A stretch of DNA of 54,785 bases from Aestuariivivens insulae. GTDB taxonomy: Bacteria > Bacteroidota > Bacteroidia > Flavobacteriales > Flavobacteriaceae. The notes under the pieces were generated by a model, which saw only the letters and a list, made by a program, of their open reading frames with translations, was not told the DNA's origin and made no database searches. The translations under genes were made by a program, and so were the position numbers. The DNA lies in NCBI RefSeq assembly GCF_022662195.1, contig NZ_JAKMCS010000021.1, positions 1 through 54,785 of the forward strand. Direction: 5' to 3'. Below, in pieces: positions 29,227 to 47,228 of this stretch; position 1 is the stretch's first letter; the number at the start of each line of letters is the position of its first letter.

Positions 29227-29245
29227 ATGTTCGAATGTATATACA
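29227..29245. promoter_or_regulatory. Candidate GntR operator upstream of the ROK kinase
   Basis: ATGTTCGAATGTATATACA contains the perfect palindrome TGTATATACA (29236-29245) and shares 13 of 19 positions with the reverse complement of the site at 40174-40192. It lies between the GntR gene stop and the kinase start. Confidence 0.5.
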
Positions 29246-29290
29246 ATTTAACTAAAAACAACTTTTAAGCATTTTGGTTGCCTTTAATGC

Positions 29291-30028
29291 TTAAAGTTCT
29301 CTTTTAATATCTATATCGTAAGTAAAATAATCGGTATGATAATATACCGTATTATATTCCACTGGTCTGTCGCCAACATCCAAGACCAAGCGTTCTCTCT
29401 TTAAAATAGCCATCTCTTTTTTTACATCTAACATCTCTGCTATCTTAGCATCGGCCGAGACCGCTTTTAATTTTTCTTTGGAGGTAGACACAATAATATC
29501 GTGCTCCCTTTCTAATAATTCATATAAAGGAACCATGAAATTTTCATCACCTGTAATTCCAATCCGCGGGTGGAAATAAGAAACAGAATATAAGTATTTG
29601 GCTTCCTTAGACCCTCTTATTTTCTCCAGCTTCCAAACCTTTTTGGTTTCTGGGACACCTAAAGCTTCGTAGACTTCCTTCTCTGCCTGTACCAAAGCAA
29701 CATTCACTAAGTAATTAACCACTTCGATACCCTGATTGCGCATTTCTTTGGTAAAGCTTATCCAGTTATCTAGACGTGTTGATATTTTTTTGGCAATAAC
29801 CTTGGTTCCAATACCTTTTTTACGTTCAATTAGTCCTTCGTGTACCAATTTATTAATGGCTTGTCTTATGGTATTTCTAGATACCCCAAGCTTTTTAGAC
29901 AAAGCGACCTCTTTAGGTAAAAGCTTGTCTCCTTTAATATAATCTTCCCTTTTTATTAACTCCCTTAGATAAATTTCTATTTGGGCATGGAGCGGTACGG
30001 GACTGTTTTGATCTAACTTAAAATTCAT
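29291..30028 (-). CDS. GntR-family regulator with UTRA domain
   Basis: This 245-residue regulator of the HutC subfamily has a winged-helix domain (about 8-75) containing LLPKEVALSKKLGVSRNTIR and INKLVHEGLIERKKGIGTKV. It is followed by a UTRA effector domain (about 95-240) ending RPVEYNTVYYHTDYFTYDI, as in NagR-like regulators that bind phosphorylated sugars. By position it is the local regulator of the mannoside locus and probably senses a sugar phosphate such as mannose-6-phosphate (inference). The palindromes at 23691, 29227 and 40174 are its candidate sites. It lies 57 nt after the glycosidase gene and 92 nt before the kinase gene. Confidence 0.93.
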   Translation of the reverse strand: MNFKLDQNSPVPLHAQIEIYLRELIKREDYIKGDKLLPKEVALSKKLGVSRNTIRQAINKLVHEGLIERKKGIGTKVIAKKISTRLDNWISFTKEMRNQGIEVVNYLVNVALVQAEKEVYEALGVPETKKVWKLEKIRGSKEAKYLYSVSYFHPRIGITGDENFMVPLYELLEREHDIIVSTSKEKLKAVSADAKIAEMLDVKKEMAILKRERLVLDVGDRPVEYNTVYYHTDYFTYDIDIKREL

Positions 30029-30085
30029 TATCGAAACCTTAGATTTTTCACATTTTATTGAAGGCTAAATATATGACATTTTAAT

Positions 30086-31372: not shown

Positions 31373-31401
31373 TTGTTAATTTTTTATTATTAAAAAGATT
31401 C

Positions 31402-31447
31402 TTCGCCTTGACTTCGACTACGCTCAGTCTGACAGCTCTGAATGACA
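31402..31447. repeat. Dispersed flavobacterial repeat within the mannoside locus
   Basis: 'cttgacttcgactacgctca' followed by 'gtctgacagctctgaatgaca' is a recognisable version of the CTTCGACT-ACGCTCAG-TGACA intergenic repeat of flavobacteria. It occupies most of the gap between the GH92 gene and the six-hairpin glycosidase gene and could separate their transcripts. Confidence 0.6.
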
Positions 31448-31448
31448 G

Positions 31449-33869
31449 TTATTCTATTGAATTAGACATCGATGGGGGCATTGTTTCCACGCCCCAATTT
31501 GTATTTGGTGCTTTACCTAAATTAAATTTTAAGGTTCCTCCTTTCATAAGCTCCTTATGCAACATCCAATGGTTAGTTATGGGTTTTCCATTCCAGGATG
31601 CCTCTTGGATATAATGATTTTCTGGTGACTGATTGATCGTTTCAATAACCAGTTCATTTCCGGGATAATAGGCCTCATCTAATTTGATCGTTATTTTATC
31701 AAACAACGGACTGCCAAACTGAAACGTTGGATTGGCGGCACTATGTCCCTGCACATCAAACAATCCCATAGACGCCATAACATACCAGGCCCCTAACTGC
31801 CCTTGATCTTCATCCTGTCCCACGCCATAGCCTCTTAAAGGTTCTGTGCCATAAAACTCGTTACAGATGGTACGCACCCATTTTTGGGTTAACCAGGGCT
31901 TCCCTGAATAATTAAATAACCAGGCATCATGCAAACAGGGTTGATTCCCATGATTGTATAATTTTTCAAGCCCTGAAAAACTATGTATATTTTCTGAATC
32001 TCCACCAAACATTGTTTTTTGAGCATCGGTAAACATGGTTTCCAATCGTTGGTTAAACAGGTCCTTACCAATTAAACCAATCAATCCCACTGGGTCATGT
32101 GGTACATACCAGGTATATTGATAGGCATTACCTTCCTGAAATCCGTCCCAAGGACGAATGGGGTCAAAATCTTCAATAAATGAACCATCTTCATTTTTAG
32201 GGCGAATATACTTAGTAGCAGGATCAAACAAATTATTATAGTAACCTGCTTGCTCCATAAGGATTTTATAATTTACAGTATCTTTTAGTCCCTTGGCCAT
32301 TTGTGCCACGGCATACGAACTAAAGCTATACTCCAACGTATGGGAAGCTCCAAAATTCATTCGCCATCCATTGGATAATTCAAACTCTTTATAGGGCACG
32401 TATTTATTTTTTATAAAAAATTCCATATCGTACTTACCATTTCCTGAATTCCGCCCTTCATAAACCATTTCATTTTTTAAAGCAGCTTCATAGCCTGTCT
32501 TTACATCTAAGTCACGTATGCCTACATTATATGCAGACGCCAAAAGCAAGCCTTGAAAATTGGTTTGAACACCATTAGTGTAGTTTCCTGCTGCTGCTCC
32601 ATCATGCAACCAGCCTCTGTCTTTATAAAAATCGATATTGGATTGTAAATAATTGCTAAATGTTCTTGGATAGGCCAAAGACCATAACTGGCTTAAATTC
32701 CAAAAGGCGCCCCACATACCATCGGTATTATAATGGTTGTATTTAATGTTGCCTTCAGCATCTAAAACGGTTCGTCCTATTTTACCATCTACCAAGGGAT
32801 AATCCCCATTAACATCGTTAGATATGCCTCTACCTAATAGGGCATGGTACAACCCTGTATAAAATTTTATCCTATTACTTTCACTGCCGCCTTCAACTAC
32901 TATTCGGTTAAGCTCTGTATTCCAAATTGAATTAGACTGTTTCCTAACACTATCAAAAGTTTGATCTTTTGCTTCTGTATTTAAATTCAATCGTGCATTA
33001 TCCACTGAGGTATAACTTAATCCTGTTTGGACTTCCAGTATATCCTCTTGGGCCATATCAAAAGTTAGATATAAGCCATTATTTATTCCTTCCGTTTTAA
33101 GGGTGCCTTGCTTTTGAATGGAATCTATAAAACTTCCTGTTGAAGTTGGTTTTTTATTGAACCTCGCAACAAAATACATTTTCACTCTTTTCCCAGGGTC
33201 ACAAAACGTTAAATATTGAGGATAGGTCTCTATATATCCTTCCATTTCAGTTTCATTAACAATTTGAACACTGGTGTTTGTAACGGTGCTGCTTTCTCCC
33301 TGTCTATGGCCTATATCCACAATTAAATGGGCCTTGTCTGTCTTCGGAAAAGTATAACGATGAAATCCTACTCTTTCTGTAGAAGTAATTTCTGCTTTCA
33401 CATTATAATCTTTTAGAAAAACACTATAATACCCTGTTTCTGAATATTCTGAGGCTTTATCAAACCTAGATCGGTATCCCGCATCTGGATTTTCTAAAGT
33501 TCCGGGAACTGTTTTTAAATCCCCAACGGTTGGCATGAATACCAAGCCTCCAATTTGAAATTCATGAAAATGACCAAAGCCTTCAATAGAGGTATGTCTA
33601 TCGTCATAGCCTCTAGGTTCCCAACCTCCGGCACTATTATATGCGTTAGTATGTGGTGCTAATTTGGCCATGCCAAAAGGGCGTGCTGCTGGTGTGTAAA
33701 AAAACCAACGTCCATGTACAGATCCTATTTGTGGATCGACATATTGCGTTAGATCTACTAATGGTTTTTCTATTTTTTCAGCTTTACTACAACCAATAGC
33801 TAGTAATGTAATTAATATCAAAACAATTACTGATGCTGACCATTTATGTGTATTTATTCTGAATCTCAT
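31449..33869 (-). CDS. GH92 alpha-mannosidase lipoprotein
   Basis: This 806-residue GH92 enzyme has no accessory domain. A lipoprotein signal ends LLAIGC (Cys27), predicting membrane anchoring. The catalytic module opens with LTQYVDPQIGSVHGRWFFY and ARPFGMAKLAPHTN. The diagnostic DEDQGQLGAWYVMASMGLFD begins at residue 686, with the C-terminal sandwich ending GGTLKFNLGKAPNTNWG. The glutamate of the DEDxGQ block is expected to be the general acid. Linkage preference (alpha-1,2, 1,3, 1,4 or 1,6) cannot be read from the sequence. It lies 125 nt downstream of the phosphatase-like gene, all on the minus strand. Confidence 0.93.
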   Translation of the reverse strand: MRFRINTHKWSASVIVLILITLLAIGCSKAEKIEKPLVDLTQYVDPQIGSVHGRWFFYTPAARPFGMAKLAPHTNAYNSAGGWEPRGYDDRHTSIEGFGHFHEFQIGGLVFMPTVGDLKTVPGTLENPDAGYRSRFDKASEYSETGYYSVFLKDYNVKAEITSTERVGFHRYTFPKTDKAHLIVDIGHRQGESSTVTNTSVQIVNETEMEGYIETYPQYLTFCDPGKRVKMYFVARFNKKPTSTGSFIDSIQKQGTLKTEGINNGLYLTFDMAQEDILEVQTGLSYTSVDNARLNLNTEAKDQTFDSVRKQSNSIWNTELNRIVVEGGSESNRIKFYTGLYHALLGRGISNDVNGDYPLVDGKIGRTVLDAEGNIKYNHYNTDGMWGAFWNLSQLWSLAYPRTFSNYLQSNIDFYKDRGWLHDGAAAGNYTNGVQTNFQGLLLASAYNVGIRDLDVKTGYEAALKNEMVYEGRNSGNGKYDMEFFIKNKYVPYKEFELSNGWRMNFGASHTLEYSFSSYAVAQMAKGLKDTVNYKILMEQAGYYNNLFDPATKYIRPKNEDGSFIEDFDPIRPWDGFQEGNAYQYTWYVPHDPVGLIGLIGKDLFNQRLETMFTDAQKTMFGGDSENIHSFSGLEKLYNHGNQPCLHDAWLFNYSGKPWLTQKWVRTICNEFYGTEPLRGYGVGQDEDQGQLGAWYVMASMGLFDVQGHSAANPTFQFGSPLFDKITIKLDEAYYPGNELVIETINQSPENHYIQEASWNGKPITNHWMLHKELMKGGTLKFNLGKAPNTNWGVETMPPSMSNSIE

Positions 33870-33994
33870 TATATAGTATTAAATATTAGCTTCATTCAAT
33901 AGCACAACCATGCTTAACCTCTATTATATTCCAGACTGGCAACCTATAAACAAGTTCGAAAACAAACGAACATCGTTTTACAAACCTCTACTTC

Positions 33995-35047
33995 TTATTT
34001 AGCAACATATACACTTTCAATACTGGCCCCTACAGGGTGATTGGCCTTAAAGGTCATGCCCAAAAGATGAGCTGCGGTTTGTGCTATTTGGTCTTGATAA
34101 ATTTGTCCTTCAACAGCTACCTCTCCCAACGTTGGTATTCCAGGTCCTAGGGCAACCAACCAGGTTTCATTGCTATGTGGGGCTCCTGTACCGTGATCTG
34201 TCCATTTGTCTCCTGTACCCCTACCATGGTCTGGATATACCAAAATTGCCGTTTTGTCCTTATAAAAAGGATCGTTTTGAAGTGTGTTCCATAAATTAGA
34301 TATCATCTTATCTATACGATTGGCTGCACTTAAATATTTAGCATACTCGCCACTGTGTCCATAGTTATCGGTATCACCAAAATCGATATGAACCACTTTG
34401 GGATGATGATTTTGTATGTACGCCTTGGTCATCATAAAAGTTAACTCATCTGGTCTACATTCATGAAAATGATCAGGAATTAAATGTTGCAGTTCATTGA
34501 TAAGGTGTTGTGCTTCAGAGTTGTTTTTATCCAATACATCTTCACCTGGTAAATTCACTAACATACCATTACGGTCGCGATTCAATATTCTTCCAAGCGC
34601 ATCCCATGACGCAAAAGTGACCACTTTCCCATGATAATCTTGATGCTTATTAAAAAACTCCAAAACGTTTTCGTTAGGATTATTTGGATACTCGTTCGAA
34701 TTGACTTTGGGGTCGTAATAGCCACATAGTGTTTCACTTCTACCAGGATAGGAAAACCAATATTCATTCTTTACATCGACCTTGTTGCCAAGAGCTCTAT
34801 TGCCATAAAGCTGTCCTTTTGATGCTATCGTATTCCAAAAAAACGGCATCAACTTTTCTCTTCTTTCAGCCTCGGTGTCTACCCAAAATTTCTTGTTCTC
34901 TATTAAAAGTGAGTCTGCTCCCTTAAAAACTTCCTGCCATCGCAATCCATCTATCGAGATTAAAATAATATTTTCAACTTTATCTTGCTGTTGGGCAAAA
35001 CCACCTAAAGAAAGGAGCAATAAAAAAACTAACAACCTAATTTTCAT
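33995..35047 (-). CDS. Secreted alkaline-phosphatase-superfamily hydrolase
   Basis: This 350-residue exported protein has a signal peptide ending GGFAQ. It carries a type I phosphodiesterase / nucleotide pyrophosphatase-like fold: ENIILISIDGLRWQEVF gives metal ligand D33, FSYPGRSETLCGYYDP provides a nucleophile at S104 or T106, VHIDFGDTDNYGHSGEY and ILVYPDHGRGTGDKW supply the second metal site, and HSNETWLVALGPG closes it. It could remove phosphate mono- or diesters. Lying inside a GH92 operon, it may uncap phosphorylated mannan (inference). The alternative is a general nucleotide phosphodiesterase. Confidence 0.85.
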   Translation of the reverse strand: MKIRLLVFLLLLSLGGFAQQQDKVENIILISIDGLRWQEVFKGADSLLIENKKFWVDTEAERREKLMPFFWNTIASKGQLYGNRALGNKVDVKNEYWFSYPGRSETLCGYYDPKVNSNEYPNNPNENVLEFFNKHQDYHGKVVTFASWDALGRILNRDRNGMLVNLPGEDVLDKNNSEAQHLINELQHLIPDHFHECRPDELTFMMTKAYIQNHHPKVVHIDFGDTDNYGHSGEYAKYLSAANRIDKMISNLWNTLQNDPFYKDKTAILVYPDHGRGTGDKWTDHGTGAPHSNETWLVALGPGIPTLGEVAVEGQIYQDQIAQTAAHLLGMTFKANHPVGASIESVYVAK

Positions 35048-35133
35048 AATTTTACATTTTTAATTTTAAAACATTTCGCTCGAAATTACATTGAAAATTT
35101 TATTATCAAAATTTTATTTTTTAATCCTCACTT

Positions 35134-38100
35134 CTAATTGATTCCCCGTGGCATGTCGTTGACTCCCCAATCCTTATTGGGTTCAGGTCCCATTTCCAGT
35201 TCCAGTTTTCCGCCTTTTAACAATTCACTGGCCGGGAACCAGAAATTCTTCAATACCTTACCATTTAACTTTGCACTTTGTACATATTTATTATTGAAGG
35301 AATTATTTTTAGCCTCAATAACAAAACTTTTCCCTCTATTGTATTGGTTGCCCAAATCGATCTCTATTTTTTCAAATAACGGACTTCCAATTTCATAGAT
35401 GGGTTCCGACCTCGTTCCTCCATCTATTTGGAACAAACCTATAGACGACATCATGTACCAAGCACTCATTTGCCCTTGGTCTTCATCTCCCAAATAGGCA
35501 TTAGAAATACCATAACCATAAAAACGGGATAAAATGTCCCTATTCCATTTTTGGGTTAACCATGGCCGTTTCACCCAATTGAACAAAAACGAAAAGTGCA
35601 TGGATTGCTGGTTCCCTTGAATTACAGGGAAATCCCAGTATTTTTCATTTGGTGCATTGTATCTCCAATTACTGCTAACGCTAAAGCCGCCATCCAAACG
35701 CTTTACAAATTCATCCTCGCCTATTATTTCAGCCAATGCCGGAATATCCTGTGGTACGAAAAAGGTAAGCTGCCATGCATTTCCTTCGGCATACTGATGG
35801 TTTCCTCCTGTTTCAATAGGATCAAAATCTTTAAACCAGGTGCCGTCTGAATGTCTCAACCTGGCAAATCCAATCTCTGGATCTATGGCATTTTTCCACC
35901 AATAGGCCCTATCTATAAATTCATTATAGGCTTTGGTTTTCCCTAAAGATTTTGCAAACTGTGATACGGTAAAATCATCAAAGGAGTACTCTAAAGTATT
36001 TGAAAAACGTCCCCTGTTATAAGGCACATACTTGTGTTTTAAATAGGTTTCCAAATCCCTGTTTCCAGCATAGCCGCCACCAACCTGTTCACCTTTGGTG
36101 GTTTGCATTTTATAAACAGCATTAAAGGCCTTTTCGGCATCGTAATCCCGAATGCCCATTTGATAAGCGCCCACAATAAGCGGAATTTCATGCTCGGCCA
36201 CCATTACCGGAATATATTCCATACCTGCAGGCCCTTTAGCCAACCAACCATTGGCATCGTACATGGCCAATTGCGATTTCACCCATTTGGATGACCATTC
36301 TGGAGTTACCAGATTCCAAAACTGGTTCAAGTTCCAAAAGGTATTCCAAAAGGCATCACAACCTAAAGCAACATCATTAGGATTACTAAATTTTTGAAGT
36401 TTTTCTTCGGCATCCATCCAGCTACCATCTACATCGCTAAATATATTTCTACTTACCAAAGCACGGTACATATTGGAATAGAACCTGGTTTTTTCCAACC
36501 TGTTGTTTGAAGTCACCTGTACCCTTTGAAATAAATTGTTCCAGGTGTTTTCCTGATTTTTACGAACCTGTTCAAAGTTCCAATCAAAAGGTTTTGTTAT
36601 TTCTTCTTCAAGATTCAATGCTGCATTCTCTATACTTACGTATGATATTCCAGTTCTTGTTTGCACCACCTGATGCTTAGATGTATCGAACTCAATAAAG
36701 GCCACAATATCTTCTGGGTCGGCAACGGTTAGTTCGGTATCATTCATAATAACAGCATCCCCTTTCCCAGCTTTACTACCATTTACCCAAGTGCCAAAGG
36801 CTTTAATGGGTTGGTCAAATTCCATCACAAAATGCACCGTATACTCTTGTGCTATAATGTCCCATTCCCTTGTTTTATCACCGCCTTCAACCATTTTGCT
36901 TCGGTAATATTGTTCTCCCCAAACAGACGGTGAAACCTGTTTACTGTACCCCACAATCTTATGGTCGTCTATCTTTTTGAAATGTGCTTCTTTAATGGCG
37001 TAGTTATATTCTGAAGGGATTTGAAGATCGACCAATATTCTGGAGTTTGGAACATCCTTCGGATAGGTATAACGTTGGAAACTGGCACGGGTTGTGGCCG
37101 TCAATTCAGCCTTGATTTTGTAATCGCTTAAAAACACCGAATAATATCCCAAAGGTGCTTCTTCAGTGGTTTTATCTACTCGCGAACGGTATCCAGAATC
37201 GGGCTCTCCCTGATTACCAACTTCGGTAACCAAAGGCCCATTGGTGGGAAAGGTTCCCAAACCTGCCATGGTCCATTCATGAATATGACTAAATGTACCC
37301 ACACTTTCGAAGGTGGGCTGATATCCTGCCTGCCAGCCTTCATTTTGATTATCGGGGCTTATTTTAACCATTCCAAAAGGCATCCAAGGCCCTGGCGCGA
37401 TCATCCATCTAGAATGTCCCGTTCCTATTTTGGTGTCCACATAATCCACCAATCTGTTGGTCTTCTTTGGAACTCTTTTTACAATGCCTTTTTCAATTGG
37501 CTTACCATCCAAAAAAACAGCATATTGACTCACTTTTGACTTCCTAACGGCTGGCATAGGGGCTTCATAAATAATTCGACCATGCTCTACTGCCTCTTCA
37601 AAAATAACCTTACCATCCAGTTGCACTTGAAGCTTCGGACTGCCTTGAAGATGCTGAACATCCACTAACAGAGGCTGCACCTGGTTCCTATCAACCTTTA
37701 ACTCATATTCTGCTGGGGTGACGCTTCTTAAAAATGCCGTTTCCGGTTTCAATAGTTGTACGTGCTCTGGTCCTTCCAAACGTACCTGATCGAATACCAA
37801 CCAACTGCCTTCCAAAGTTGTTAACTGAATGCTATTCCCGCCATAGGTTATCAGGTCTTCAGGAATTGTAACACTTATTTTTTGTTCTTTGGTATCTGAA
37901 TTTACTCCTTTTAAAGCTTCAGCATTTTGCCCTTTATCTAATCTAAACTTCCATGATTTACCATTGACTGTTACCTTAAAATAGGGTGGCGTTTCCGGAT
38001 TACAATCCAAAACATCAACTATTAACTTCCAAGGGCCCTGCTTAGGTTTTTCACTTAAGCCAAACAAAATATTGATTTCGTGCGGACGGATCCCTGCCAA

Positions 38101-38355
38101 TCCAGAGGTCCCCCCCCAATAATCCATCGCTCCTGGCAATACAAATGGAAAATCTTTTGCTGTATTGGAATACCCAACAACATAAAACCGATCTTCCCAT
38201 CCAAAGTCTTTTTCCAAAAATTTGCTGTACTCCGAATTTGCCAAGGCAAACTCTGCACTACTATTATCAGATTTTCCTATTTGCCATACCGTTGTATTCT
38301 GGGCATAGCCAACTGTAAAAGACATTGCGACTGCAATCAGAAGTTTAAATTTCAT
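35134..38355 (-). CDS. Large GH92 alpha-mannosidase with PL4-like N-terminal domain
   Basis: This 1073-residue exported enzyme has the signal KLLIAVAMSFTVGYAQ. Residues about 20-205 (TVWQIGKSDNSSAEFALA, FPFVLPGAMDYWGGTSGL, GNSIQLTTLEGSWLVFDQVR) resemble the carbohydrate-binding domain III of rhamnogalacturonan lyases (PL4). An Ig-like segment (about 210-290) follows, and then the GH92 module from RLVDYVDTKIGTGHSRW. The diagnostic DEDQGQMSAWYMMSSIGLFQ starts at residue 957. A G8 run (C8 on the plus strand, 38110-38117) lies in codons near residue 82. The gene starts 18 nt after the isomerase gene stop, so they are one transcript. The extra domain suggests a different or larger glycan target than its sister enzymes. 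Confidence 0.92.
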   Translation of the reverse strand: MKFKLLIAVAMSFTVGYAQNTTVWQIGKSDNSSAEFALANSEYSKFLEKDFGWEDRFYVVGYSNTAKDFPFVLPGAMDYWGGTSGLAGIRPHEINILFGLSEKPKQGPWKLIVDVLDCNPETPPYFKVTVNGKSWKFRLDKGQNAEALKGVNSDTKEQKISVTIPEDLITYGGNSIQLTTLEGSWLVFDQVRLEGPEHVQLLKPETAFLRSVTPAEYELKVDRNQVQPLLVDVQHLQGSPKLQVQLDGKVIFEEAVEHGRIIYEAPMPAVRKSKVSQYAVFLDGKPIEKGIVKRVPKKTNRLVDYVDTKIGTGHSRWMIAPGPWMPFGMVKISPDNQNEGWQAGYQPTFESVGTFSHIHEWTMAGLGTFPTNGPLVTEVGNQGEPDSGYRSRVDKTTEEAPLGYYSVFLSDYKIKAELTATTRASFQRYTYPKDVPNSRILVDLQIPSEYNYAIKEAHFKKIDDHKIVGYSKQVSPSVWGEQYYRSKMVEGGDKTREWDIIAQEYTVHFVMEFDQPIKAFGTWVNGSKAGKGDAVIMNDTELTVADPEDIVAFIEFDTSKHQVVQTRTGISYVSIENAALNLEEEITKPFDWNFEQVRKNQENTWNNLFQRVQVTSNNRLEKTRFYSNMYRALVSRNIFSDVDGSWMDAEEKLQKFSNPNDVALGCDAFWNTFWNLNQFWNLVTPEWSSKWVKSQLAMYDANGWLAKGPAGMEYIPVMVAEHEIPLIVGAYQMGIRDYDAEKAFNAVYKMQTTKGEQVGGGYAGNRDLETYLKHKYVPYNRGRFSNTLEYSFDDFTVSQFAKSLGKTKAYNEFIDRAYWWKNAIDPEIGFARLRHSDGTWFKDFDPIETGGNHQYAEGNAWQLTFFVPQDIPALAEIIGEDEFVKRLDGGFSVSSNWRYNAPNEKYWDFPVIQGNQQSMHFSFLFNWVKRPWLTQKWNRDILSRFYGYGISNAYLGDEDQGQMSAWYMMSSIGLFQIDGGTRSEPIYEIGSPLFEKIEIDLGNQYNRGKSFVIEAKNNSFNNKYVQSAKLNGKVLKNFWFPASELLKGGKLELEMGPEPNKDWGVNDMPRGIN

Positions 38356-38373
38356 ATCCTCTAGTTTTATTTT

Positions 38374-40140
38374 TTAACAGGCCTCATCCTTAACAAACGA
38401 GACGATTACTTTTGCTGTTTCTTTGCCCTTATTTATCAGGCGATAGCTATTGGCTGCCGCCGACACGGCAAAGGTTTCTGCATAATGAAAGGTTTGGGAT
38501 TCGTTTAATAAATCCAATGCTACCGCAGTACCTTCCACAAGCATTAACACATGACACTGATTTAAAGTTTCTATAATAACTTCATCATCGAATTCATATC
38601 TATATATGTCGTAGAAATGATCGGGATGTGTTGGTAAATGTATTTTCTTCCAATGATCACCAGACGCTTCCACATATGGTTTAGAAACCAAGGTATCCTG
38701 TACAACTTGTCCTTTTCTGCTAAAGTTTAAGTTATCGAAAGCACGGTCAATATTTAAAGGTCTCGGATTTCCATCCATGTCCATCCGTTGCCAATCGTAC
38801 ATTTTAAAGGTGAAAATATAAGGGGTTGCACTAATTTCCAAAACCATATTATCTACCCCCGAGCAATGCACTGTGCCATGTGGAATTAAGAATAAATCAT
38901 GTTTTTTTGCGGGTAACTTTTGCACGTATTGCTCTACATCCAGCACTTCTTTTGTTTCGTAACTGTGTTCTAATGCCTCTTTAAAGGTTTGGGGATCGAT
39001 ATCTTCCTGAAATCCTAAATACACATCGGCACCTTCCTTAGCATCCAGAATGTAATAGGTTTCATCTTGGGTGAAATTTTCTCCGAATTCCTTTTTAATA
39101 TAATCCGGTTTGGGATGGCACTGTACCGATAGATTTCCGCCATCGAAGGTATCCAGAAAATCAAAACGAATAGGAAACTCATCTTGAAATCGCTTAGCTG
39201 CTTTGCCCAGTACATTCTCTTGTTCCTGAAACATTAACATATCAAAGGACACTTCCAACATACCATATTCATCACCAAAAACCAATCCGTTTTCTGGTAC
39301 GATCATTTCAAAGGACCACGCATAATTAGGCACCTCTTTATTTAAACCTTCTATACGATCCTTCATCCATTGTCCTCCCCATATGCCCGGTTCAAACCAA
39401 GGCCTTACCCTAAAGTAGCCTTTAGACAGTTTGGACAAACTAGCCCTTAGCGCCTCCCCTTCGGTCCATGTAGGCTCTCCAGGGCGCTGCTGATCTACAA
39501 CGATATCGATTAGAGGCAACAATCTTTTCTTTTCTTCATTTAACACCACCCAATCCACAAAATAAAAATGTTTGTACATTTGTTTAGGGTCTTTTGTTGA
39601 AGATAACCCCAAATTGGTGATAGCATCGGCACGCATTCTAAACTGTAATTCGTTTTTAGGCAAATCGAAATACACCAAACAGCCCTCTACGTTAATCAAA
39701 CTTGATCCTGTACCGTAGATAATATTAATGTCCTTACTTTTATCTAAACCGATCTCTGATATCTTTTTTTCATCAAAATAATCACTCAACCTTAGATTTG
39801 TTTTTCTCCCAAAAACCGGATCATCTCCTCCTAAATAAGGCGTAACCATCTTATTAATTTCATCTTCACCCTTAAAACAGTCCTTCACATTATAAAGACG
39901 AACCAAAAGATCTTTCTTCTCAAAAATAACTTCTAACGCCCTTATTACCTCTTCCCAATCTACTCCAACATAACCGTCTAAAATAATTACTTGCTCATGT
40001 TTCAACCTATCCGCCAAAGCCTCATAACCAATGGCCACGCGACCGTCTATTAATTGATGTACAGGATTTATATCGTATCCACCATTACCTGGTTTTTCTT
40101 TTTTGACTGGCATTAAATACTGACTTGTTTTTCTTTCCAT
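38374..40140 (-). CDS. manA: Class I mannose-6-phosphate isomerase, extended
   Basis: This zinc enzyme interconverts mannose-6-phosphate and fructose-6-phosphate. The PMI cupin part lies in the second half of this 588-residue protein: RVRPWFEPGIWGGQWMK, the zinc-binding SVQCHPKPDYIKKEFG with DETYYIL, and LFLIPHGTVHCSGVDNM. The first 200 or so residues are an extra domain not found in short PMIs; VIILDGYVGVDWEEVIRAL recalls the first strand of uridine-kinase-like P-loop proteins but has no GxxxxGK[ST]. No signal peptide is present, so it is cytoplasmic. It is the first gene of the mannoside operon and has an operator-like palindrome in its promoter. Confidence 0.88.
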   Translation of the reverse strand: MERKTSQYLMPVKKEKPGNGGYDINPVHQLIDGRVAIGYEALADRLKHEQVIILDGYVGVDWEEVIRALEVIFEKKDLLVRLYNVKDCFKGEDEINKMVTPYLGGDDPVFGRKTNLRLSDYFDEKKISEIGLDKSKDINIIYGTGSSLINVEGCLVYFDLPKNELQFRMRADAITNLGLSSTKDPKQMYKHFYFVDWVVLNEEKKRLLPLIDIVVDQQRPGEPTWTEGEALRASLSKLSKGYFRVRPWFEPGIWGGQWMKDRIEGLNKEVPNYAWSFEMIVPENGLVFGDEYGMLEVSFDMLMFQEQENVLGKAAKRFQDEFPIRFDFLDTFDGGNLSVQCHPKPDYIKKEFGENFTQDETYYILDAKEGADVYLGFQEDIDPQTFKEALEHSYETKEVLDVEQYVQKLPAKKHDLFLIPHGTVHCSGVDNMVLEISATPYIFTFKMYDWQRMDMDGNPRPLNIDRAFDNLNFSRKGQVVQDTLVSKPYVEASGDHWKKIHLPTHPDHFYDIYRYEFDDEVIIETLNQCHVLMLVEGTAVALDLLNESQTFHYAETFAVSAAANSYRLINKGKETAKVIVSFVKDEAC

Positions 40141-40499: not shown

Positions 40500-41831
40500 T
40501 TATTTATTTTCCAACTCAATTTCTTCCAGGGTTTTATTAGTTGTCTCGAACAAAAATCTTTTAAAGAAAAAGAACCCCAACAGTGTCATCAATGCAAAGA
40601 AGGCAAAACTGTATCCAATACCTTTCCCTTCGCTAAACGCTCCAACAACTATGGGAAACAGAAAGGTAATCGATCCGTTCACAATCCAATTCGAAAAAGA
40701 GCCTATGGCCACACCCCGTGACCGAATATTGTTTGGGAATATCTCTGCCAACAATACAAAAACCACAGCTCCCATGGACGATGCAAAACATGCGACATAG
40801 CATATAAGGATGCCCAACAACAACCAGCCCTCTGTATTACCCGTGTAGAAAGCCCATGAAAAAAAACCAAGTGTTATAGTCATTCCAATGGTTCCTACGT
40901 ATAACAACTTTTTTCTTCCTACTTTATCAATCAAGCTCATGGCCAATAGGGTAAATATTAAATTCGTGGCTCCCAGAATAACCGTTTGGCCTATAGCAGA
41001 ATCGGTTGAAAAACCAGCCGCCCTAAAAATGTCTGTTGCATAATAAAAAACGATGGCTACCCCTGTGAACTGACTGAACAATCCAATGCAGATCCCTATC
41101 AAGGTAAACTTTAAGTTGGGCTTCTTAAACAAATGTTCTTGTTTTCCTTCACGCTCCAAGGTTATGGAGGTTACAATGTCGTTTATAATCCCTTGTATAT
41201 CTGCATTGGGATTTACATCTATTATGGCTTTCTTAGCTGCTTCCTGATCTCCTGTTTGCATTAACCATCTGGGGCTCTTACGAACTTTTAGAAGTAGCAG
41301 CAGAAAGGCCAATGCCGGTATGGCCTCGGAAATAAACATATAGCGCCAATTGTTTTTCCCTGTATCGATTAAAATATAATCTACAAAAAAGGCTACCAAA
41401 ATTCCAACGACCAAAGCCAATTGAAACGTAATAATTAACCTTCCCCTATGGGCTGCAGGGGCTATTTCTGAAATATAAATAGGCGACAGCACAGAGGCTG
41501 CCCCAACTGCCAAACCGCCTATGAACCTAAATAAAATAAAACTGTTAATCTCTGGCGCAAGCCCCGTACCAACAGCAGACATCAAAAATAGCACGGCAGA
41601 AAACTTGAGCATTTCCCGTCGTCCATATTTATCACCAGGCTTACCAATTGAAATGGCACCTATTATACATCCCAATAACGCAGAACTTACGGCCCAACCG
41701 GTCATGACATCATTCAACTGGAAATAGGATTTAAAAAAGGGCAATGCGCCATTTATTACCGCCGTGTCGAAGCCATATAGTAGCCCACCTATGGCAGCTA
41801 CTAAGGTATACAGTATTAGTTTTCCTTTCAT
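40500..41831 (-). CDS. MFS sugar porter of the second catabolic operon
   Basis: This 443-residue, 12-helix sugar porter family transporter shows LLYGFDTAVINGALPFFK, GDKYGRREMLKF, RFIGGLAVGAASVLSPIYIS, KSPRWLMQTGDQ and a C-terminal TTNKTLEEIELENK. It is clearly a paralogue of the mannose-locus porter but sits 69 nt after the creatininase-family gene, all on the minus strand. It is therefore the likely importer for the substrate of that operon. A sugar, sugar acid or lactone is plausible; the family does not settle it. Confidence 0.9.
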   Translation of the reverse strand: MKGKLILYTLVAAIGGLLYGFDTAVINGALPFFKSYFQLNDVMTGWAVSSALLGCIIGAISIGKPGDKYGRREMLKFSAVLFLMSAVGTGLAPEINSFILFRFIGGLAVGAASVLSPIYISEIAPAAHRGRLIITFQLALVVGILVAFFVDYILIDTGKNNWRYMFISEAIPALAFLLLLLKVRKSPRWLMQTGDQEAAKKAIIDVNPNADIQGIINDIVTSITLEREGKQEHLFKKPNLKFTLIGICIGLFSQFTGVAIVFYYATDIFRAAGFSTDSAIGQTVILGATNLIFTLLAMSLIDKVGRKKLLYVGTIGMTITLGFFSWAFYTGNTEGWLLLGILICYVACFASSMGAVVFVLLAEIFPNNIRSRGVAIGSFSNWIVNGSITFLFPIVVGAFSEGKGIGYSFAFFALMTLLGFFFFKRFLFETTNKTLEEIELENK

Positions 41832-41900
41832 TTGTGTTTTTTTAAAATTGATTCATTATTATCACTCCCTCTTACGAAACTTCATCTGGCCAGGAACTAA

Positions 41901-42662
41901 CTACGCTTCCATAACCAAAATATCATCAATGATTTTTTTTAAATCATCAACAACCCATTTCGAAATATGCTTCCCTTTTTCTATAGATCCATATTCTGGA
42001 CTCCCAAAAACACCATTGGTGGTCATCTCCTTTGTTGATCTATAATAGGATACCTTAGCTCCTCGCAGCATATCCCCTTCGCTCCAGGAAAATGTATCGG
42101 TATGTTTTCCTTTTTCTATGTTATCTGCATGTACCAAGTGGGGTGCAATCAATAGCATTAATGACGTTTCAAATTCACCGGCATGTCCTACGCCTCCTTT
42201 ACCACTTTCATTTAAAGCAAATAAGGCATTTGATGCCAATTTCCACCAGTTAACCATAATGATATTTGTTGTAGGGTTTTCGTAACCTAACTTTTCTACC
42301 AATACTTGACCAACAGCTTGGTTTCCACCATGACTGTTTAAAAGAATGATATTTTTAAATCCATGTTGCATTACCGATCTTACAATGTCTTCAACCTGTC
42401 TTATAAATGTGTCGTGACTAATGGTAAGTGTTCCTGAAAAATCCATATGGTGTGAAGAGCACCCAATACTAATGGAAGGCAGCACTAGCACTTTACTTGG
42501 GATAACTTTGTGTAACTCATTAGCAAAATGTTCTCCAATCAATCTGTCTGTTGCCAGTGGTAAATGCTTTCCGTGTTGTTCCGTAGCGGCCATAGTAAGT
42601 ATAACCGGTATGTTTCTAGCTACCTTACTTAATTCTAATGTTGTTAATTGATCCCAAATCAT
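41901..42662 (-). CDS. Creatininase-family hydrolase
   Basis: This 253-residue cytoplasmic metal-dependent amidohydrolase of the creatininase family shows the ligands in order: TEQHGKHLPLATDRLIGE, SHHMDFSGTLTISHD, ILLNSHGGNQAV and GHAGEFETSLMLLI. Family members open cyclic amides or lactams (creatinine, a mycofactocin precursor, formamidopyrimidines). In this operon a sugar-lactone or cyclic-amide ring-opening step is plausible, but the substrate is not evident. It starts 14 nt after the NTF2-RidA gene stop. Confidence 0.9.
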   Translation of the reverse strand: MIWDQLTTLELSKVARNIPVILTMAATEQHGKHLPLATDRLIGEHFANELHKVIPSKVLVLPSISIGCSSHHMDFSGTLTISHDTFIRQVEDIVRSVMQHGFKNIILLNSHGGNQAVGQVLVEKLGYENPTTNIIMVNWWKLASNALFALNESGKGGVGHAGEFETSLMLLIAPHLVHADNIEKGKHTDTFSWSEGDMLRGAKVSYYRSTKEMTTNGVFGSPEYGSIEKGKHISKWVVDDLKKIIDDILVMEA

Positions 42663-42676
42663 AATTCCATTCTTTG

Positions 42677-43552
42677 TTATTTTTTAGCGGCCCACATTTC
42701 AATTTCAACAACCAGATTCATTAACAATCCTGTTTGTACCGCCGTACGAACGGGTTTGGGGTCTTTAAAGTAATTTTTATAAACCGCATTGAATCTTGGC
42801 CAATCGGTTAAATCTTTAATGAATACGTTTACTTTAAATACATCGTTAAGAGTACATCCTGCAGACGCTAATTGCATACTGCAATTATCCATCATATAGA
42901 TTGTTTGTTCTTCTATGGTATCTCCAATAACGTTTCCTTGTTTATCTATAGCTGCTTGACCAGAAATAACAACCAGTTTAGCTGGGTTAACTTCTAAAAC
43001 AGGGGAATAAGGTCCTGCAGTAACATGCTGGCTCGCGTTTGCCGGCATCTGCTTTATTGCTTGTAAATTAGGGTTGGAGTGGACACTAAAAAATGGTAAA
43101 TAGCCTGTAAATCCAACCATTTTCCATTGCCCGTTTATTTTTCTACATCTATATAATGTTTGCCAATTGGTTTCTACATAACTCCCGTCTGCTTTCTTTA
43201 TATCCCCCACAAACTTTTTGTGCAGTAATGCTGCGCCACCTATAATTTCTATGTCTTGCAATATGGTTACCCTGTGCAATGCTTCGGTTACATCTTCTCC
43301 CCATTCGGTTTCATGAAACTCTTTGGCCTGTTGAAGCCATGAAGTTTTATAGCTTTCTAAATTTGGAAAGCTTAATTTCCATTGGTCAATGTTTTGAAGT
43401 TTTCCTCCATCGATCCCCATAAAACCTTCTTCATGAAAATCATTTTCTACCATTTGCCAATCTTGGTTTACAAATGCATCGATATCCCTTTTGACCACCA
43501 TGTCCCAAATGTCTTCTTTATTCTTATCTATACCTATAAAAGGGTTAATCAT
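42677..43552 (-). CDS. NTF2-like / RidA fusion protein
   Basis: This 291-residue two-domain protein has residues about 10-155 resembling an NTF2/SnoaL-like fold (KRDIDAFVNQDWQMVENDF, then TNWQTLYRCRKINGQWKMVG). Residues about 170-291 are a full RidA/YjgF domain with GPYSPVLEVNPAKLVVISGQ, the conserved arginine in KPVRTAVQTGLL and the terminal VEIEMWAA. RidA enzymes deaminate reactive imines or enamines; some family members act in catabolic pathways. The fusion suggests that a catabolic intermediate is handled by both domains. The ATG overlaps the enolase-type gene stop (ATGA), so translation is coupled. Confidence 0.88.
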   Translation of the reverse strand: MINPFIGIDKNKEDIWDMVVKRDIDAFVNQDWQMVENDFHEEGFMGIDGGKLQNIDQWKLSFPNLESYKTSWLQQAKEFHETEWGEDVTEALHRVTILQDIEIIGGAALLHKKFVGDIKKADGSYVETNWQTLYRCRKINGQWKMVGFTGYLPFFSVHSNPNLQAIKQMPANASQHVTAGPYSPVLEVNPAKLVVISGQAAIDKQGNVIGDTIEEQTIYMMDNCSMQLASAGCTLNDVFKVNVFIKDLTDWPRFNAVYKNYFKDPKPVRTAVQTGLLMNLVVEIEMWAAKK

Positions 43553-44682
43553 AACTTATACGTTTTTTGTTTTGTTTGGTAATGTTTAACGGCGTCCATA
43601 TCTACTTCAATACCTAAGCCCAATCCTTCTGGTAAATAAGCATAGGGCGCCTCAATTTTTAAAGGTGATTTCAATAGGTCATGCTCACGGATTAAGCGCC
43701 CAAAAATATCGCTTGGCCAATTGCAAGATGCCGCCGCTGCCGCAGCGTGTATGTACATGGCCTCTAAAATACCGAGGTCTATTTCGGAACCGTGCCAACA
43801 GTTTAATTCTGCTGCAGATGCTATATGATCCAATCTCTGAAAGTCTGCCAATCCACAATTAAAATTAAACCCATCTACGGCCTGTAATTGAATCGCTTGA
43901 ATGCTATCTTTTATTCTTTGTCCGTGAATGATATAGGGCAACGACACATGAAGCACTATGGGAATCGATGCGTAGTTCCTCAATTGGTGATACTCGTTTA
44001 ATTGCCAACGAGGAAGTGGATCTTCGAGACATAACACATTTCCTATTTCCTGTAAGCCATCAATGCGTTTCTTAACTTCAAAAGCATGCAACCAACGTTC
44101 GTTAGGGTCTAAAATAACCTGCATTTCTGGCGCTGTTTCAGCAATTGTTCTGCACCATCCAATAACATCGTCCTCTAAATCGCTTTTAAACTTCATACAG
44201 GTATATCCCATGTTCTGAAACTTTAAAGCTAAATCTGCAATATCCTCTTGACTACGATGACTGGACCAGGCCCCTACGTTTACCTTGTTCTTTAAAGCAC
44301 CTCCCAATAAATCTACTACCCGTACACCTTTTAATTTTGCATAAGCGTCCCAAATGGCACACTCGAAACCATCATATTCCCTAGAAAACGCAAAAGGTAA
44401 TTTTTGCAATGTTAGTTTTTCAATGTCTTGACCCACCAATAGTGCCCCTATAGCATCTACTGTAGCCCAATTATGGCTTCTGTACAGTTCACCCCATCCT
44501 ATGATACCGTTTTTCAATTCTAATTGTACTATTAGTTTGGGGACTTCATCAAATTGTACACTCCAGCCTGCTTTAGCTCCCAAGGGCAATTTATGCAACC
44601 CTTTATTGATACCTTTACTTTCAATAGCTCCTGGGTGTGCTGGAACTATAACTTCAAAACAAGTAATCCTACTAATTATCAT
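43549..44682 (-). CDS. Enolase-superfamily dehydratase/epimerase
   Basis: This 377-residue member of the mandelate racemase/muconate lactonising group has a capping domain (about 1-125) and a barrel. The barrel carries the catalytic K-x-K (K164, K166 in TCMKFKSDLEDD), metal ligands D192 (ILDPNERW) and E220 (LCLEDPLPRW), and a late CWHGSEIDLGI segment. Where the third metal ligand normally follows 'IPI', the sequence is IPIVLHVSLPY, with no acidic residue. Sugar-acid dehydration is the commonest activity in such operons and is my guess. It begins 5 nt after the SDR gene stop and overlaps the next gene by 4 nt. Confidence 0.88.
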   Translation of the reverse strand: MIISRITCFEVIVPAHPGAIESKGINKGLHKLPLGAKAGWSVQFDEVPKLIVQLELKNGIIGWGELYRSHNWATVDAIGALLVGQDIEKLTLQKLPFAFSREYDGFECAIWDAYAKLKGVRVVDLLGGALKNKVNVGAWSSHRSQEDIADLALKFQNMGYTCMKFKSDLEDDVIGWCRTIAETAPEMQVILDPNERWLHAFEVKKRIDGLQEIGNVLCLEDPLPRWQLNEYHQLRNYASIPIVLHVSLPYIIHGQRIKDSIQAIQLQAVDGFNFNCGLADFQRLDHIASAAELNCWHGSEIDLGILEAMYIHAAAAAASCNWPSDIFGRLIREHDLLKSPLKIEAPYAYLPEGLGLGIEVDMDAVKHYQTKQKTYKL

Positions 44683-44687
44683 ACGTG

Positions 44688-45476
44688 CTATTTTTCTATA
44701 AATGAATTGTTGTACAGCATAGAGGTCGTTCCATTATCTACATAAATCACCTGACCGGTAACGGCCCTGCTAAATTCTGAAACTAAAAAGCCAACCACAT
44801 TGCCACAATCTTCGGCTTGTATTTCAAATGGTAAACTTTGATAGTCTTTAGTGTGATGCTCCACCCAAAGTTCAGGATCATCGGCAAAGGTTTTAATCAA
44901 CTTTAAATTCTGTTCTGCATGTACATAACCGGGAGCGACAGCATTTACCCTAATATTGTGTTTTCCCAATTCTACTGCCATGCCCATGGTTAACCCTTCC
45001 ACCGCTCTTTTAGCACTGGCATAAACGGCATACTTAGAAATGGTTGCCGAAGTGTGTACTGAAGAAATATTAATTATACTGCCTTCTGAATTGCTTTCTA
45101 TAAGCTGATTAGCAAATAATTTCGACAGTTTCCATACAGCCCTTACATCTATATTGTATAGATTATCAAACTCTTCATTGGTTACCTCATGGGCTTCTTT
45201 ACTTAGTCCTATACCGGCATTATTGACTAAACCATGTATGACGCCTACTTGTTTTGCCAAGGTTGCAAACATGGCATCCACTTGGGTTTCATTAGTTATA
45301 TCGGCCGCTATTGCAATGGCATTAGGTAGTTTATTAGCTGCTTCTTGGGCTTGCTCTAAATCTCGGGCATTTACAATAACCCGAGCTCCCATCTTTGATA
45401 ACGCAACGGCTACTCCATTACCAACTCCAAAGCCTGCAGCTCCGGTAACTAAAATATTTTTATTGGATAGATTCAT
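44688..45476 (-). CDS. Short-chain dehydrogenase/reductase
   Basis: This 262-residue NAD(P)-dependent classical SDR shows the cofactor loop VTGAAGFGVGNGVAVALSKM (TGxxxGxG), VIVNARD after the second strand, NNAGIGLS, the catalytic serine in INISSVHTSA, Y-x-x-x-K in YAVYASAKRA, and VAPGYVHAEQNL. In this operon it probably oxidises a hydroxyl of the dehydrated sugar acid or of the original sugar. The start region is duplicated: an identical ATG context lies 16 nt upstream, out of frame (see the repeat entry). I use the ATG at 45476, which is in frame with the cofactor motif. Confidence 0.93.
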   Translation of the reverse strand: MNLSNKNILVTGAAGFGVGNGVAVALSKMGARVIVNARDLEQAQEAANKLPNAIAIAADITNETQVDAMFATLAKQVGVIHGLVNNAGIGLSKEAHEVTNEEFDNLYNIDVRAVWKLSKLFANQLIESNSEGSIINISSVHTSATISKYAVYASAKRAVEGLTMGMAVELGKHNIRVNAVAPGYVHAEQNLKLIKTFADDPELWVEHHTKDYQSLPFEIQAEDCGNVVGFLVSEFSRAVTGQVIYVDNGTTSMLYNNSFIEK

Positions 45477-45496
45477 TATTGGATAGATTCATTATT
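45465..45496. repeat. 16-bp perfect tandem duplication over the SDR start codon
   Basis: GGATAGATTCATTATT occurs twice head to tail (45465-45480 and 45481-45496). On the minus strand each copy contains ATGAATCTATCC, so the SDR mRNA has two identical initiation sites 16 nt apart. The upstream one is out of frame and would give a ten-codon peptide ending in TAA inside the SDR start. Confidence 0.95.
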
Positions 45497-45502
45497 AAAT
45501 AA

Positions 45503-46204
45503 TTACATGATTCCGAACTTTTGAAAGGCATCTACAGTACTCATGCCTTCTTCCAAAGCTTTTTGTACCAGTTTTTCTCCTCTCGCTTTTTCAATTGCTC
45601 CAGTAAATGCTTCTTTTTCTATTTCTTGAGGGACGATTAGCACACCATCCCTATCGCCATAAACAATATCTCCTGGGTTTATACGAACGCCGTTAAATTC
45701 AATAGGCACCCTATAGTCAATGACTTTTCCTCTTGGGCCTTGGTCCTGGGCATAAGTTCCCAATGAAAATGTTGGAAAATTTAGTTTTTCTATCTCATTG
45801 GTATCTCTTGAATACCCATCAACTACAGCTCCTGCTGCTTTTAATTTTAAAGCTCTCGTACTCATTAATCCTCCCCATAAAGCATATCTGGGCGATGCTC
45901 CCGAGCATATATAAACTTCATGCTCTTGTAAACTGTCCAATGCTTCAAACATAATCCCAAAAGGCTTCTTCATTAGTGGATTATTTGTTTGTTGTGGAGA
46001 TTCTTCAAAAGTATCGGCCTCCAATACGGGCATAGCTCTTCCTATGGTAACCATATCTTTTCTTAGAGGTTTTATGTTTGGTGATAGAAATTGATGCAAG
46101 TACCCCAGTTTATCCAATACATCGCCCACTAAAGCAACGAACAGTTCTTCTTTAGCTATTTTGAAAAGTTCTTGGTCGTTTCTCCATGTTATCCTTGTGT
46201 CCAT
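45503..46204 (-). CDS. RraA-like / HMG-aldolase-family protein
   Basis: This 233-residue protein of the RraA family has the class II pyruvate-aldolase version of the active site: GDVLDKLGYLHQF, then GGLMSTRALKLKAAGAVVDG followed by YSRDTNEI (the G...RDxxE/D arrangement that binds metal and pyruvate), and VRINPGDIVYGDRDGVLIVP. True RraA RNase-E inhibitors lack the second acidic residue, so an aldolase or decarboxylase role is more likely. It is the first gene of the operon, 26 nt before the SDR gene. It would be expected to release pyruvate from a 4-hydroxy-2-oxo acid. Confidence 0.88.
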   Translation of the reverse strand: MDTRITWRNDQELFKIAKEELFVALVGDVLDKLGYLHQFLSPNIKPLRKDMVTIGRAMPVLEADTFEESPQQTNNPLMKKPFGIMFEALDSLQEHEVYICSGASPRYALWGGLMSTRALKLKAAGAVVDGYSRDTNEIEKLNFPTFSLGTYAQDQGPRGKVIDYRVPIEFNGVRINPGDIVYGDRDGVLIVPQEIEKEAFTGAIEKARGEKLVQKALEEGMSTVDAFQKFGIM

Positions 46205-46337
46205 AATTATATTATCTTTTAGAATTTGGTAGTCTTTATTGTTGACCCACCCTATTGTCTTAAATTCTTAATTGTCCAAAGGAAACTAAAAGTTTAAAAA
46301 ATATTATTAATTTTAGTACGATAATACTATTTCAAAG

Positions 46338-47228
46338 ATGCAGAAACTGGATAAAGTGTCTACAGAAGACCGCCAAATAATTGATTTAGAAGCTTTAGGG
46401 TTTGAATTCGTAAAGGTTTTGGGATCTTACAACTACAGGCAAATGAACAAAAGCCTGGACATGCATGTCCACGAGAATATGATAGAAATATGTTTTCTTG
46501 AAAAGGGCTCTCAGTATTACCACATTCAGGGAGAGGATTACAGGATTAATGGAGGCGATCTTTTATTGACATTCCCTGGTGAGGAACATGGCACCAAAAG
46601 TTTTCCTGAAGAACGCGGACGTTTATTCTGGTTTATCATGGAAGTACCCGATAAAAATAGACGTCTTTTAAATTTAACAAGAAAAGATACCAAATTATTA
46701 ATGGAGAGTTTCATGAGCCTAAAATCGAACAGAAAATTTAAAGGCTCTGATAGGCTAAAGCATGACCTTAATGCCATATACCGAATTTGCAAGTATCCTA
46801 TAAGCGGATTGGACAAAATTAAAATTACCAATCTATTACTGCACTTCTTATTAAACGTCCTGGAATTTGGGAATAAACATTCCAATCAAATTATAAGTAA
46901 GGAAATAGCTGATATTTGTATTTTTATTAAAAACAACCTTAATGAATCATTTCCCTTAGAGCATTTAGCCCAGTTGTGCAACTTGTCACTATCGCATTTT
47001 AAGTACAAGTTTAAAAAGGAAATGGGATACTCTCCTTCTGATTATATTTTGAGGCAAAAAATTGAAAAATCCAAGGAGCAATTGCGCATCAAAACGAATA
47101 GCATACAGGATGTGGCCTATAATTTGGCGTTTAGTTCGTCTTCCTACTTTGCAACTGTTTTTAAGCGTTACACAGGCGAATCCCCCTCCTCTTATTTACT
47201 TTCGAACGGAAACGGTCTTAAATCATAA
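46338..47228 (+). CDS. AraC-family regulator of the second catabolic operon
   Basis: This 296-residue regulator has an N-terminal cupin sensor (MDMHVHENMIEICFLEKGSQ, GGDLLLTFPGEEHGTKSF) and a C-terminal double helix-turn-helix (about 190-290) with PLEHLAQLCNLSLSHFKYKF and QDVAYNLAFSSSSYFATVFK. It is divergent from the RraA-SDR-enolase operon with only 133 bp between, so it is almost certainly its activator. The H-x-H-x-x-x-E pattern of the cupin could bind a sugar-like effector. No exact -7 box was found in the intergenic region. Confidence 0.92.
   Translation: MQKLDKVSTEDRQIIDLEALGFEFVKVLGSYNYRQMNKSLDMHVHENMIEICFLEKGSQYYHIQGEDYRINGGDLLLTFPGEEHGTKSFPEERGRLFWFIMEVPDKNRRLLNLTRKDTKLLMESFMSLKSNRKFKGSDRLKHDLNAIYRICKYPISGLDKIKITNLLLHFLLNVLEFGNKHSNQIISKEIADICIFIKNNLNESFPLEHLAQLCNLSLSHFKYKFKKEMGYSPSDYILRQKIEKSKEQLRIKTNSIQDVAYNLAFSSSSYFATVFKRYTGESPSSYLLSNGNGLKS

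Follow-up and report, generated by a model that had tools for sequence, protein, structure and literature searches.

What does an uncharacterised, conserved operon of the marine flavobacterium Aestuariivivens insulae break down, and by what chemistry? The operon is carried by a contig of 54,785 nucleotides (NZ_JAKMCS010000021.1, assembly GCF_022662195.1), here called the window, meaning the whole stretch of DNA that was analysed. An earlier note on this DNA had described a catabolic operon without an assigned pathway and had guessed at an amino-sugar-derived acid as its substrate. Judging by sequence comparison, the operon probably serves to break down an N-acetylated hexosamine, likeliest N-acetylglucosamine (GlcNAc) or an isomer of it, by oxidation and without phosphorylation; the substrates, the reactions and their order are our proposal. 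The evidence lies in the structure of the operon, the families of its proteins, the catalytic residues that they keep, the conservation of the gene set and a reciprocal replacement of enzymes between loci, all of which were observed directly.

Six minus-strand open reading frames (ORFs) occupy positions 40500-46204, with spacings of 26, 5, -4, 14 and 69 nt, and a divergent gene for an AraC-family regulator lies on the plus strand (46338-47228; HTH_AraC, 6e-23; AraC_binding, 6.5e-11). This packing matches the earlier note exactly. From the AraC side, the six genes encode an RraA-like protein of 233 amino acids (45503-46204; Pfam RraA-like, 1.6e-33); SDR1, a short-chain dehydrogenase/reductase (SDR) of 262 amino acids (44688-45476; adh_short_C2, 1.8e-53); a muconate-lactonizing-like protein of the enolase superfamily with 377 amino acids (43549-44682; MR_MLE_C, 1.1e-24; MR_MLE_N, 3.4e-05); a fusion of 291 amino acids (42677-43552) with a DUF4440/NTF2-like domain at about residues 1-155 and a RidA domain at residues 178-289 (Ribonuc_L-PSP, 8.9e-26); a creatininase-family metal-dependent hydrolase of 253 amino acids (41901-42662; Creatininase, 2.6e-63); and an MFS sugar porter of 443 amino acids (40500-41831; Sugar_tr, 1.1e-107). 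The family labels given earlier were recovered with Pfam and NCBIfam, the weak one being that of the NTF2 half, which scores below the DUF4440 cut-off (16.7 bits against 25.2).

Among the NCBIfam matches listed for the operon proteins, only the MFS porter passes a curated cut-off, that of a subfamily model (TIGR00879, sugar porter; 364 bits, cut-off 237.8). The other proteins fall below such cut-offs, and thus no exact function can be read off for any protein of the set. The best model for SDR1 is PRK07231, "glucose 1-dehydrogenase" (166 bits, cut-off 215), and its residues S138/S139, Y152 and K156 are kept in 4 of 4 aligned sequences. The RraA-like protein keeps the motif D-G-x-x-R133-D134, to which we assign a catalytic role, in all four aligned orthologues, that of the actinomycete Embleya included. 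We propose that the porter takes up the sugar, that SDR1 would be a hexosamine C1 dehydrogenase and that the RraA-like protein, as had been suggested before, is a pyruvate aldolase, in this case of class II and presumably acting on a 2-keto-3-deoxy acid.

The same six genes, in the same order and with the divergent AraC gene, are found in Aestuariivivens marinum (L016), Snuella sedimenti (L017) and a Seonamhaeicola metagenome-assembled genome (L018). The operon proteins are 83-95% identical across these loci and the AraC protein, at the same position, 84-87%. In Embleya (Actinomycetota, L019; a 5.7 Mb replicon) five of these genes, those for SDR, RraA, enolase, fusion and creatininase, lie side by side, their products 43-57% identical to those of the window, with the order of SDR and RraA swapped. 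No MFS match was found at the Embleya locus, where the five genes are flanked by ABC sugar-transporter genes (read by eye) and by a PfkB kinase gene most like 2-keto-3-deoxygluconate (KDG) or 2-keto-3-deoxygalactonate kinase (189 bits, cut-off 400); the type of transporter varies between loci (MFS, SSF, ABC, NagP-like, EamA). A gene-neighbourhood search had been proposed in the earlier note as a check, and in it the genes proved to stay together in Flavobacteriaceae and in Embleya. This co-occurrence supports the seven-gene set as what appears to be one conserved catabolic unit.

A fusion/NTF2 profile matches 9 of 397 Flavobacteriaceae genomes (E <= 1e-25) and an enolase profile 7 of them (E <= 1e-40), all within those nine; the two that remain are G582 and G749. 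Among 395 genomes of the phylum, the NTF2 profile matches 3 and the enolase profile 6: G000 and G209 belong to both sets, G298 has the NTF2 match only, and G227, G286, G290 and G337 the enolase match only. The enolase frame of G209 (L034:9598-10809) is broken near residue 111 and runs in frame into the NTF2-RidA fusion; the resulting 403 aa frame is without the enolase barrel domain, by in-frame deletion or assembly collapse. In G610 (L042:9146-9832) the enolase gene also looks interrupted: a single short frame contains pieces from both its ends, N-terminal and C-terminal, and the NTF2 and RidA parts are encoded separately.

The chemistry is suggested by a comparison of gene content in a matrix of 26 loci. 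Similarity was the basis on which these loci were chosen, and with several close relatives among them the counts are not independent. Ten rhizobial-type plasmid records were opened and entered (239 records, Embleya included, hold an NTF2 homologue); L035, L017 (on the same contig as L036) and the short loci L001-L015, L025-L033 and L048-L059 were left out. The enolase is present at 14 loci and a D-threonine-aldolase (D-TA)-type pyridoxal phosphate (PLP) enzyme at 9, with no locus holding both and three holding neither. Creatininase-family genes occur at all 14 loci with the enolase and at none of the 12 without it, and M81 hydrolase genes at 0 of 14 and 9 of 12, respectively; RidA is found at 24 of the 26. 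G582 and G749 have NTF2 and SDR1 without the enolase, adjoined by a D-TA/D-serine-dehydratase-type PLP enzyme and RidA. A sister group of four enolase-only genomes (L060-L063) has an enolase 36-39% identical to that of the window. All four also have a second SDR, a protein of the creatininase family (30-32%), a dehydrogenase of the 3HCDH family and, in place of RraA, a DHDPS-family protein; RidA is present in three. Since G582 and G749 share the second SDR (46-50%), the 3HCDH protein (~50%) and RidA (46-50%) with this group, the exchange of enolase and PLP enzyme is seen on two different backgrounds. On the ten alphaproteobacterial plasmids the NTF2 gene is accompanied by RidA, SDR, RpiR, M81 and mostly D-TA-type genes. 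These clusters resemble the operon in their NTF2 homologue (39-54% identical), RidA, an SDR and mostly a glycoside hydrolase of family GH20, but M81 and the PLP enzyme replace the creatininase family and the enolase, and they show no match to RraA.

Creatininase-family and M81 proteins are both metal-dependent hydrolases, and their exchange in step with that of the two eliminases fits a deacetylation. The window protein matches PF02633 with 214 bits (cut-off 31.3), and E28, H30, D39, H111, E163 and E165, presumably its metal ligands, are invariant in 8 of 8 sequences. It shares fold and metal residues with creatininase, MftE and IolN but scores below the cut-offs of all three (121 bits against 235, 113.5 against 172 and 71 against 245, respectively). 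The earlier note had cast this enzyme as the ring opener; its replacement by M81 in relatives fits amide hydrolysis better, and ring opening now seems less likely than N-deacetylation.

In the enolase-type enzyme, K164-x-K166, D192, E220 and H245 are unchanged in all 8 relatives compared, the most distant of which are 36-39% identical. The K-x-K motif on beta-2 and the first two metal ligands, D192 and E220, are features of the muconate-lactonizing subgroup. Opposite H245, 3i4k and 4m0x have the Asp of the ADES motif and 4dye has Asn; at beta-6, where the sequence alignment leaves a gap against 3i4k, there is no matching Lys. We take the position of H245 to be that of the third metal ligand, usually Asp or Glu, and the beta-6 Lys position to be that of the second base. 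The protein thus appears to belong to an enolase family with His at the usual third ligand position, where it departs from the standard subgroup. AlphaFold models from four-row alignments (mean pLDDT 43.2 for this enzyme and 42.3 for the fusion) were too poor and were left unused. A precedent for the chemistry is cis-3-hydroxy-L-proline dehydratase, in which an enolase-superfamily enzyme eliminates water from a beta-hydroxy amino acid to give an imine. The elimination is of the same type, but the window enzyme reaches just 26 bits against NF043002 (cut-off 500), and different ligand residues are to be expected. We propose, from the exchange with a PLP enzyme, that it is a hexosaminate dehydratase.

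The following course of reactions would account for the gene set. The sugar would be taken up by the MFS porter and oxidised at C1 by SDR1 to a lactone, which would open to the N-acetylhexosaminate spontaneously or with the aid of the NTF2 domain. The creatininase-family enzyme would remove the acetyl group, and the enolase-type enzyme would take the C2 proton beside the carboxylate and expel the 3-hydroxyl to leave an enamine. The enamine would pass to an imine, which the RidA domain would hydrolyse to ammonia and a 2-keto-3-deoxyhexonate, and the RraA-type aldolase would cleave the latter to pyruvate and glyceraldehyde. If the enolase-type enzyme takes the place of a PLP enzyme, loss of the C2 proton and the 3-hydroxyl would be its natural reaction, and an enamine or imine produced in this way would need RidA, which fits the RidA fusion. 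Both RraA and the DHDPS family are types of pyruvate aldolase, so their alternation fits the cleavage of a 2-keto-3-deoxy acid.

The RidA domain noted earlier is indeed present in the fusion and keeps its substrate-binding arginine. R269 and E285 are invariant in 4 of 4 aligned sequences, and the arginine, which we take to hold the substrate carboxylate as the equivalent of R105 in E. coli RidA, is kept in 5 of 5 compared. Stand-alone proteins at 8 alphaproteobacterial and Flavobacteriaceae loci share 39-61% identity with the NTF2 half. Six of 14 relatives match DUF4440, which we regard as an NTF2/SnoaL-type fold, within an E limit of 5, the best of them at 0.0012, and under the same limit a profile of the domain found no chain in the PDB. 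Lactone opening and tautomerisation are both candidate functions. That the NTF2 domain instead carries out the main catalysis on the sugar, for example as an enamine-to-imine tautomerase and not as a lactonase, seems somewhat doubtful. Its fusion to RidA in loci of the window type and adjacency to RidA in alphaproteobacteria speak for this, as does its absence from the sister group L060-L063, which keeps the enolase and mostly RidA, so that the domain is not needed for dehydration; in Phyllobacterium, however, it stands by a GlcNAc kinase and NagA with no RidA or SDR match in the fetched stretch.

The closest described system that we found for the proposed hexosamine pathway is the ong pathway for oxidised chitin of Pseudoalteromonas prydzensis. 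That pathway starts from N-acetylglucosaminic acid (GlcNAc1A) made by a lytic polysaccharide monooxygenase (LPMO), which is then deacetylated (PMC9537276); a structure of the deacetylase is given in PMC12017989. OngC, a PLP enzyme of fold III and a distant relative of the D-threonine aldolases, converts glucosaminate to KDG and ammonia, and growth on GlcNAc1A requires OngD, a protein of the RidA family whose role is stated as unknown (PMC9537276). Both routes are non-phosphorylating, deacetylate a hexosaminate, lose the amino group as ammonia by elimination, pass through 2-keto-3-deoxygluconate and include RidA, although the steps of the operon are proposed ones. The ong pathway has a D-aminoacylase-type deacetylase, a fold-III PLP deaminase, KdgK, an RpiR regulator and an LPMO-made starting compound (PMC9537276), whereas the operon has the creatininase family, the enolase type, RraA, AraC and an SDR instead of an LPMO. 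No D-TA-type (OngC-like) gene was found in the operon region of the window (OngC itself was not the comparator), and among the seven operon proteins there is no match to a Pfam family of the OngB kind, that of D-aminoacylase-type deacetylases. The LPMO family PF03067 is absent from all 14 genomes searched, G000 included, and LPMO-made GlcNAc1A was dropped as an entry to the pathway; entry through a dehydrogenase is then plausible, with SDR1 supplying the acid. The operon would thus work like the ong pathway without being a member of it, since it appears to lack the OngC type, the OngB type and the LPMO. No one-to-one match with a known pathway emerged: by family, RidA is all that ong shares with the operon (PMC9537276), and the open-licence literature searched held no paper combining three of creatininase, RraA, RidA and the enolase superfamily.

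Genes near the loci point to the substrate. One or more of the probed amino-sugar genes (GH20, GH109, GH89, NagA, GlcNAc kinase or NagP-like porters) lie near 16 of the 26 loci (8 of 10 alphaproteobacterial and 8 of 16 others), which supports the guess at an amino-sugar-derived acid. GH20 is found at 7 of the 10 alphaproteobacterial loci, and GH20 with GH109 at 3 of 4 sister loci. The 14 genomes tested have 0 to 9 GH20 genes each; at about 7 in 7 Mb, some 0.02 would be expected per 20 kb. The Loktanella locus holds NagA, NagB and a ROK gene and that of Phyllobacterium GlcNAc kinase, SIS and NagA; GH89 (NAGLU) lies near L016 and L036, and NagP-like porters occur at L040-L042 (298 bits at L040, cut-off 625). 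A Gfo/Idh protein beside the L016 operon was rejected as a GH109 candidate: its 51 PDB matches are oxidoreductases and it has no GH109 Pfam domain. It is unlikely that the substrate is another nitrogen-containing sugar, such as a rarer amino sugar or a derivative that is amino-uronic or N-acylated, with the chemistry after oxidation unchanged. Transporters and neighbours that differ across loci would suit it, as would sulfatase-like genes by L038 and (by eye) L018 and the NagA and NagB genes alongside the NTF2 cluster of Loktanella. PhyH-type oxygenases in Embleya (L019:1415-2188) and G722 (L037:1919-2872), 30% identical, are likewise not explained by plain GlcNAc. GH20, GH89 and GH109, however, suggest the common N-acetylhexosamines.

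Several points weigh against an N-acetylhexosamine pathway of the kind proposed. The window has none of the probed amino-sugar genes within its own 20 kb, its nearest hints being three GH92 genes and, at a distance of about 18 kb, a GH18 gene, and L018, L019, L034, L037, L038, L039 and L063 are without the probed genes too, some of them cut by contig ends. L022, L043 and L046 hold NTF2 with neither enolase nor D-TA type; the rhizobial SDR is ~31% identical to SDR1, no better than other SDRs; and all the loci were found by similarity, with close relatives among them. An NTF2 homologue at L035:9496-9966 (34% identical) lies in what by eye appears to be a cluster for nonulosonate or surface polysaccharide synthesis, with putative NeuB-, PseB- and PseG-like neighbours. 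NagB-like proteins exceed the cut-off in 10 of 10 operon-bearing genomes tested, with two copies in G000, and 6 of the 10 also have NagA, so that a second GlcNAc route may exist. In vitro, OngC needed no partner to release ammonia and KDG (PMC9537276), so the RidA step is unproven even in ong. The absence of NagA was also considered as a reason for the operon and dropped: in G000 the best NagA score is 27 bits (cut-off 225.65; NagB-like 254 bits), which says little because 90 of 100 genomes of the family have no NagA at E <= 1e-30 and the baseline is thus 10 in 100. The NagB-like domains of G000 lie at C22:81121-81837 and C29:21660-22370, in frames of 645-646 aa.

Two further explanations seem less likely. 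The enolase-type enzyme could be an epimerase or racemase of the N-acetylhexosaminate, with nitrogen removed by another enzyme; the K-x-K motif, the cycloisomerase- and racemase-like closest models and the membership of N-acyl amino acid racemases in the superfamily agree with this, but 9 loci have a D-TA-type eliminase in place of the missing enolase and, the NTF2 domain possibly excepted, the operon has no other eliminase candidate, which makes it improbable. Least likely is a nitrogen-free sugar-acid pathway of the L-fucose/L-rhamnose type, with a creatininase-family lactonase and a merely protective RidA: an enolase dehydratase, an SDR and an aldolase are the usual set of such pathways, an FAA-hydrolase gene of L062 bears its closest resemblance to 2,4-didehydro-3-deoxy-L-rhamnonate hydrolase (212 bits against a cut-off of 500) and a fucosidase-, fucose-permease- and UxaA-like set lies by L017 (by eye), but the D-TA-type PLP enzyme that is swapped for the enolase needs an amino acid, and both RidA and the amino-sugar genes recur as counted above. 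Of the likeness to these pathways drawn in the earlier note, the order of the chemistry stands and the rest does not.

Upstream of the AraC start lies an inverted repeat, TAGTA-N6-TACTA (46314-46329), which is a candidate operator. It occurs once in the window (chance mean 0.09), within a block identical in the window, L016, L017 and L018, and was not found in L019, L034, L037, L038 or L039. Promoter and terminator scans gave chance levels (23 against 26.0 and 6 against 5.8 expected, respectively). Beside the operon, positions 23828-40140 hold the three GH92 genes, a sugar porter, ROK and GntR-UTRA genes and a 588 aa protein with weak similarity to ManA; by its gene content this is a predicted mannose or N-glycan cluster. 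A 428 aa ORF within it (30086-31372) has no Pfam match at 1e-5. At L037:154-1902, a 582 aa protein combines ROK kinase and GKRP-type SIS domains and is possibly an amino-sugar kinase and etherase.

A broader view, which we offer tentatively, is that these loci represent a modular, phosphate-free N-acetylhexosamine route in which an undescribed His-ligand enolase family dehydrates free hexosaminates and unrelated enzymes fill three steps across phyla. The interchangeable steps would be deacetylation (creatininase or M81), nitrogen removal (enolase or PLP enzyme) and C-C cleavage (RraA or DHDPS, or a KDG-kinase-like protein). If this is true, the enolase family, this branch of the creatininase family and the NTF2-RidA fusion would each gain a function, as would, by replacement, M81 hydrolases and PLP enzymes of the D-TA type on hundreds of rhizobial plasmid records. 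The natural fusion would make testable the role of RidA in such pathways, which the ong description leaves as unknown (PMC9537276). It would also widen the view of how bacteria break down, without sugar phosphates, the sugars of chitin, N-glycans, mucin and glycosaminoglycans.

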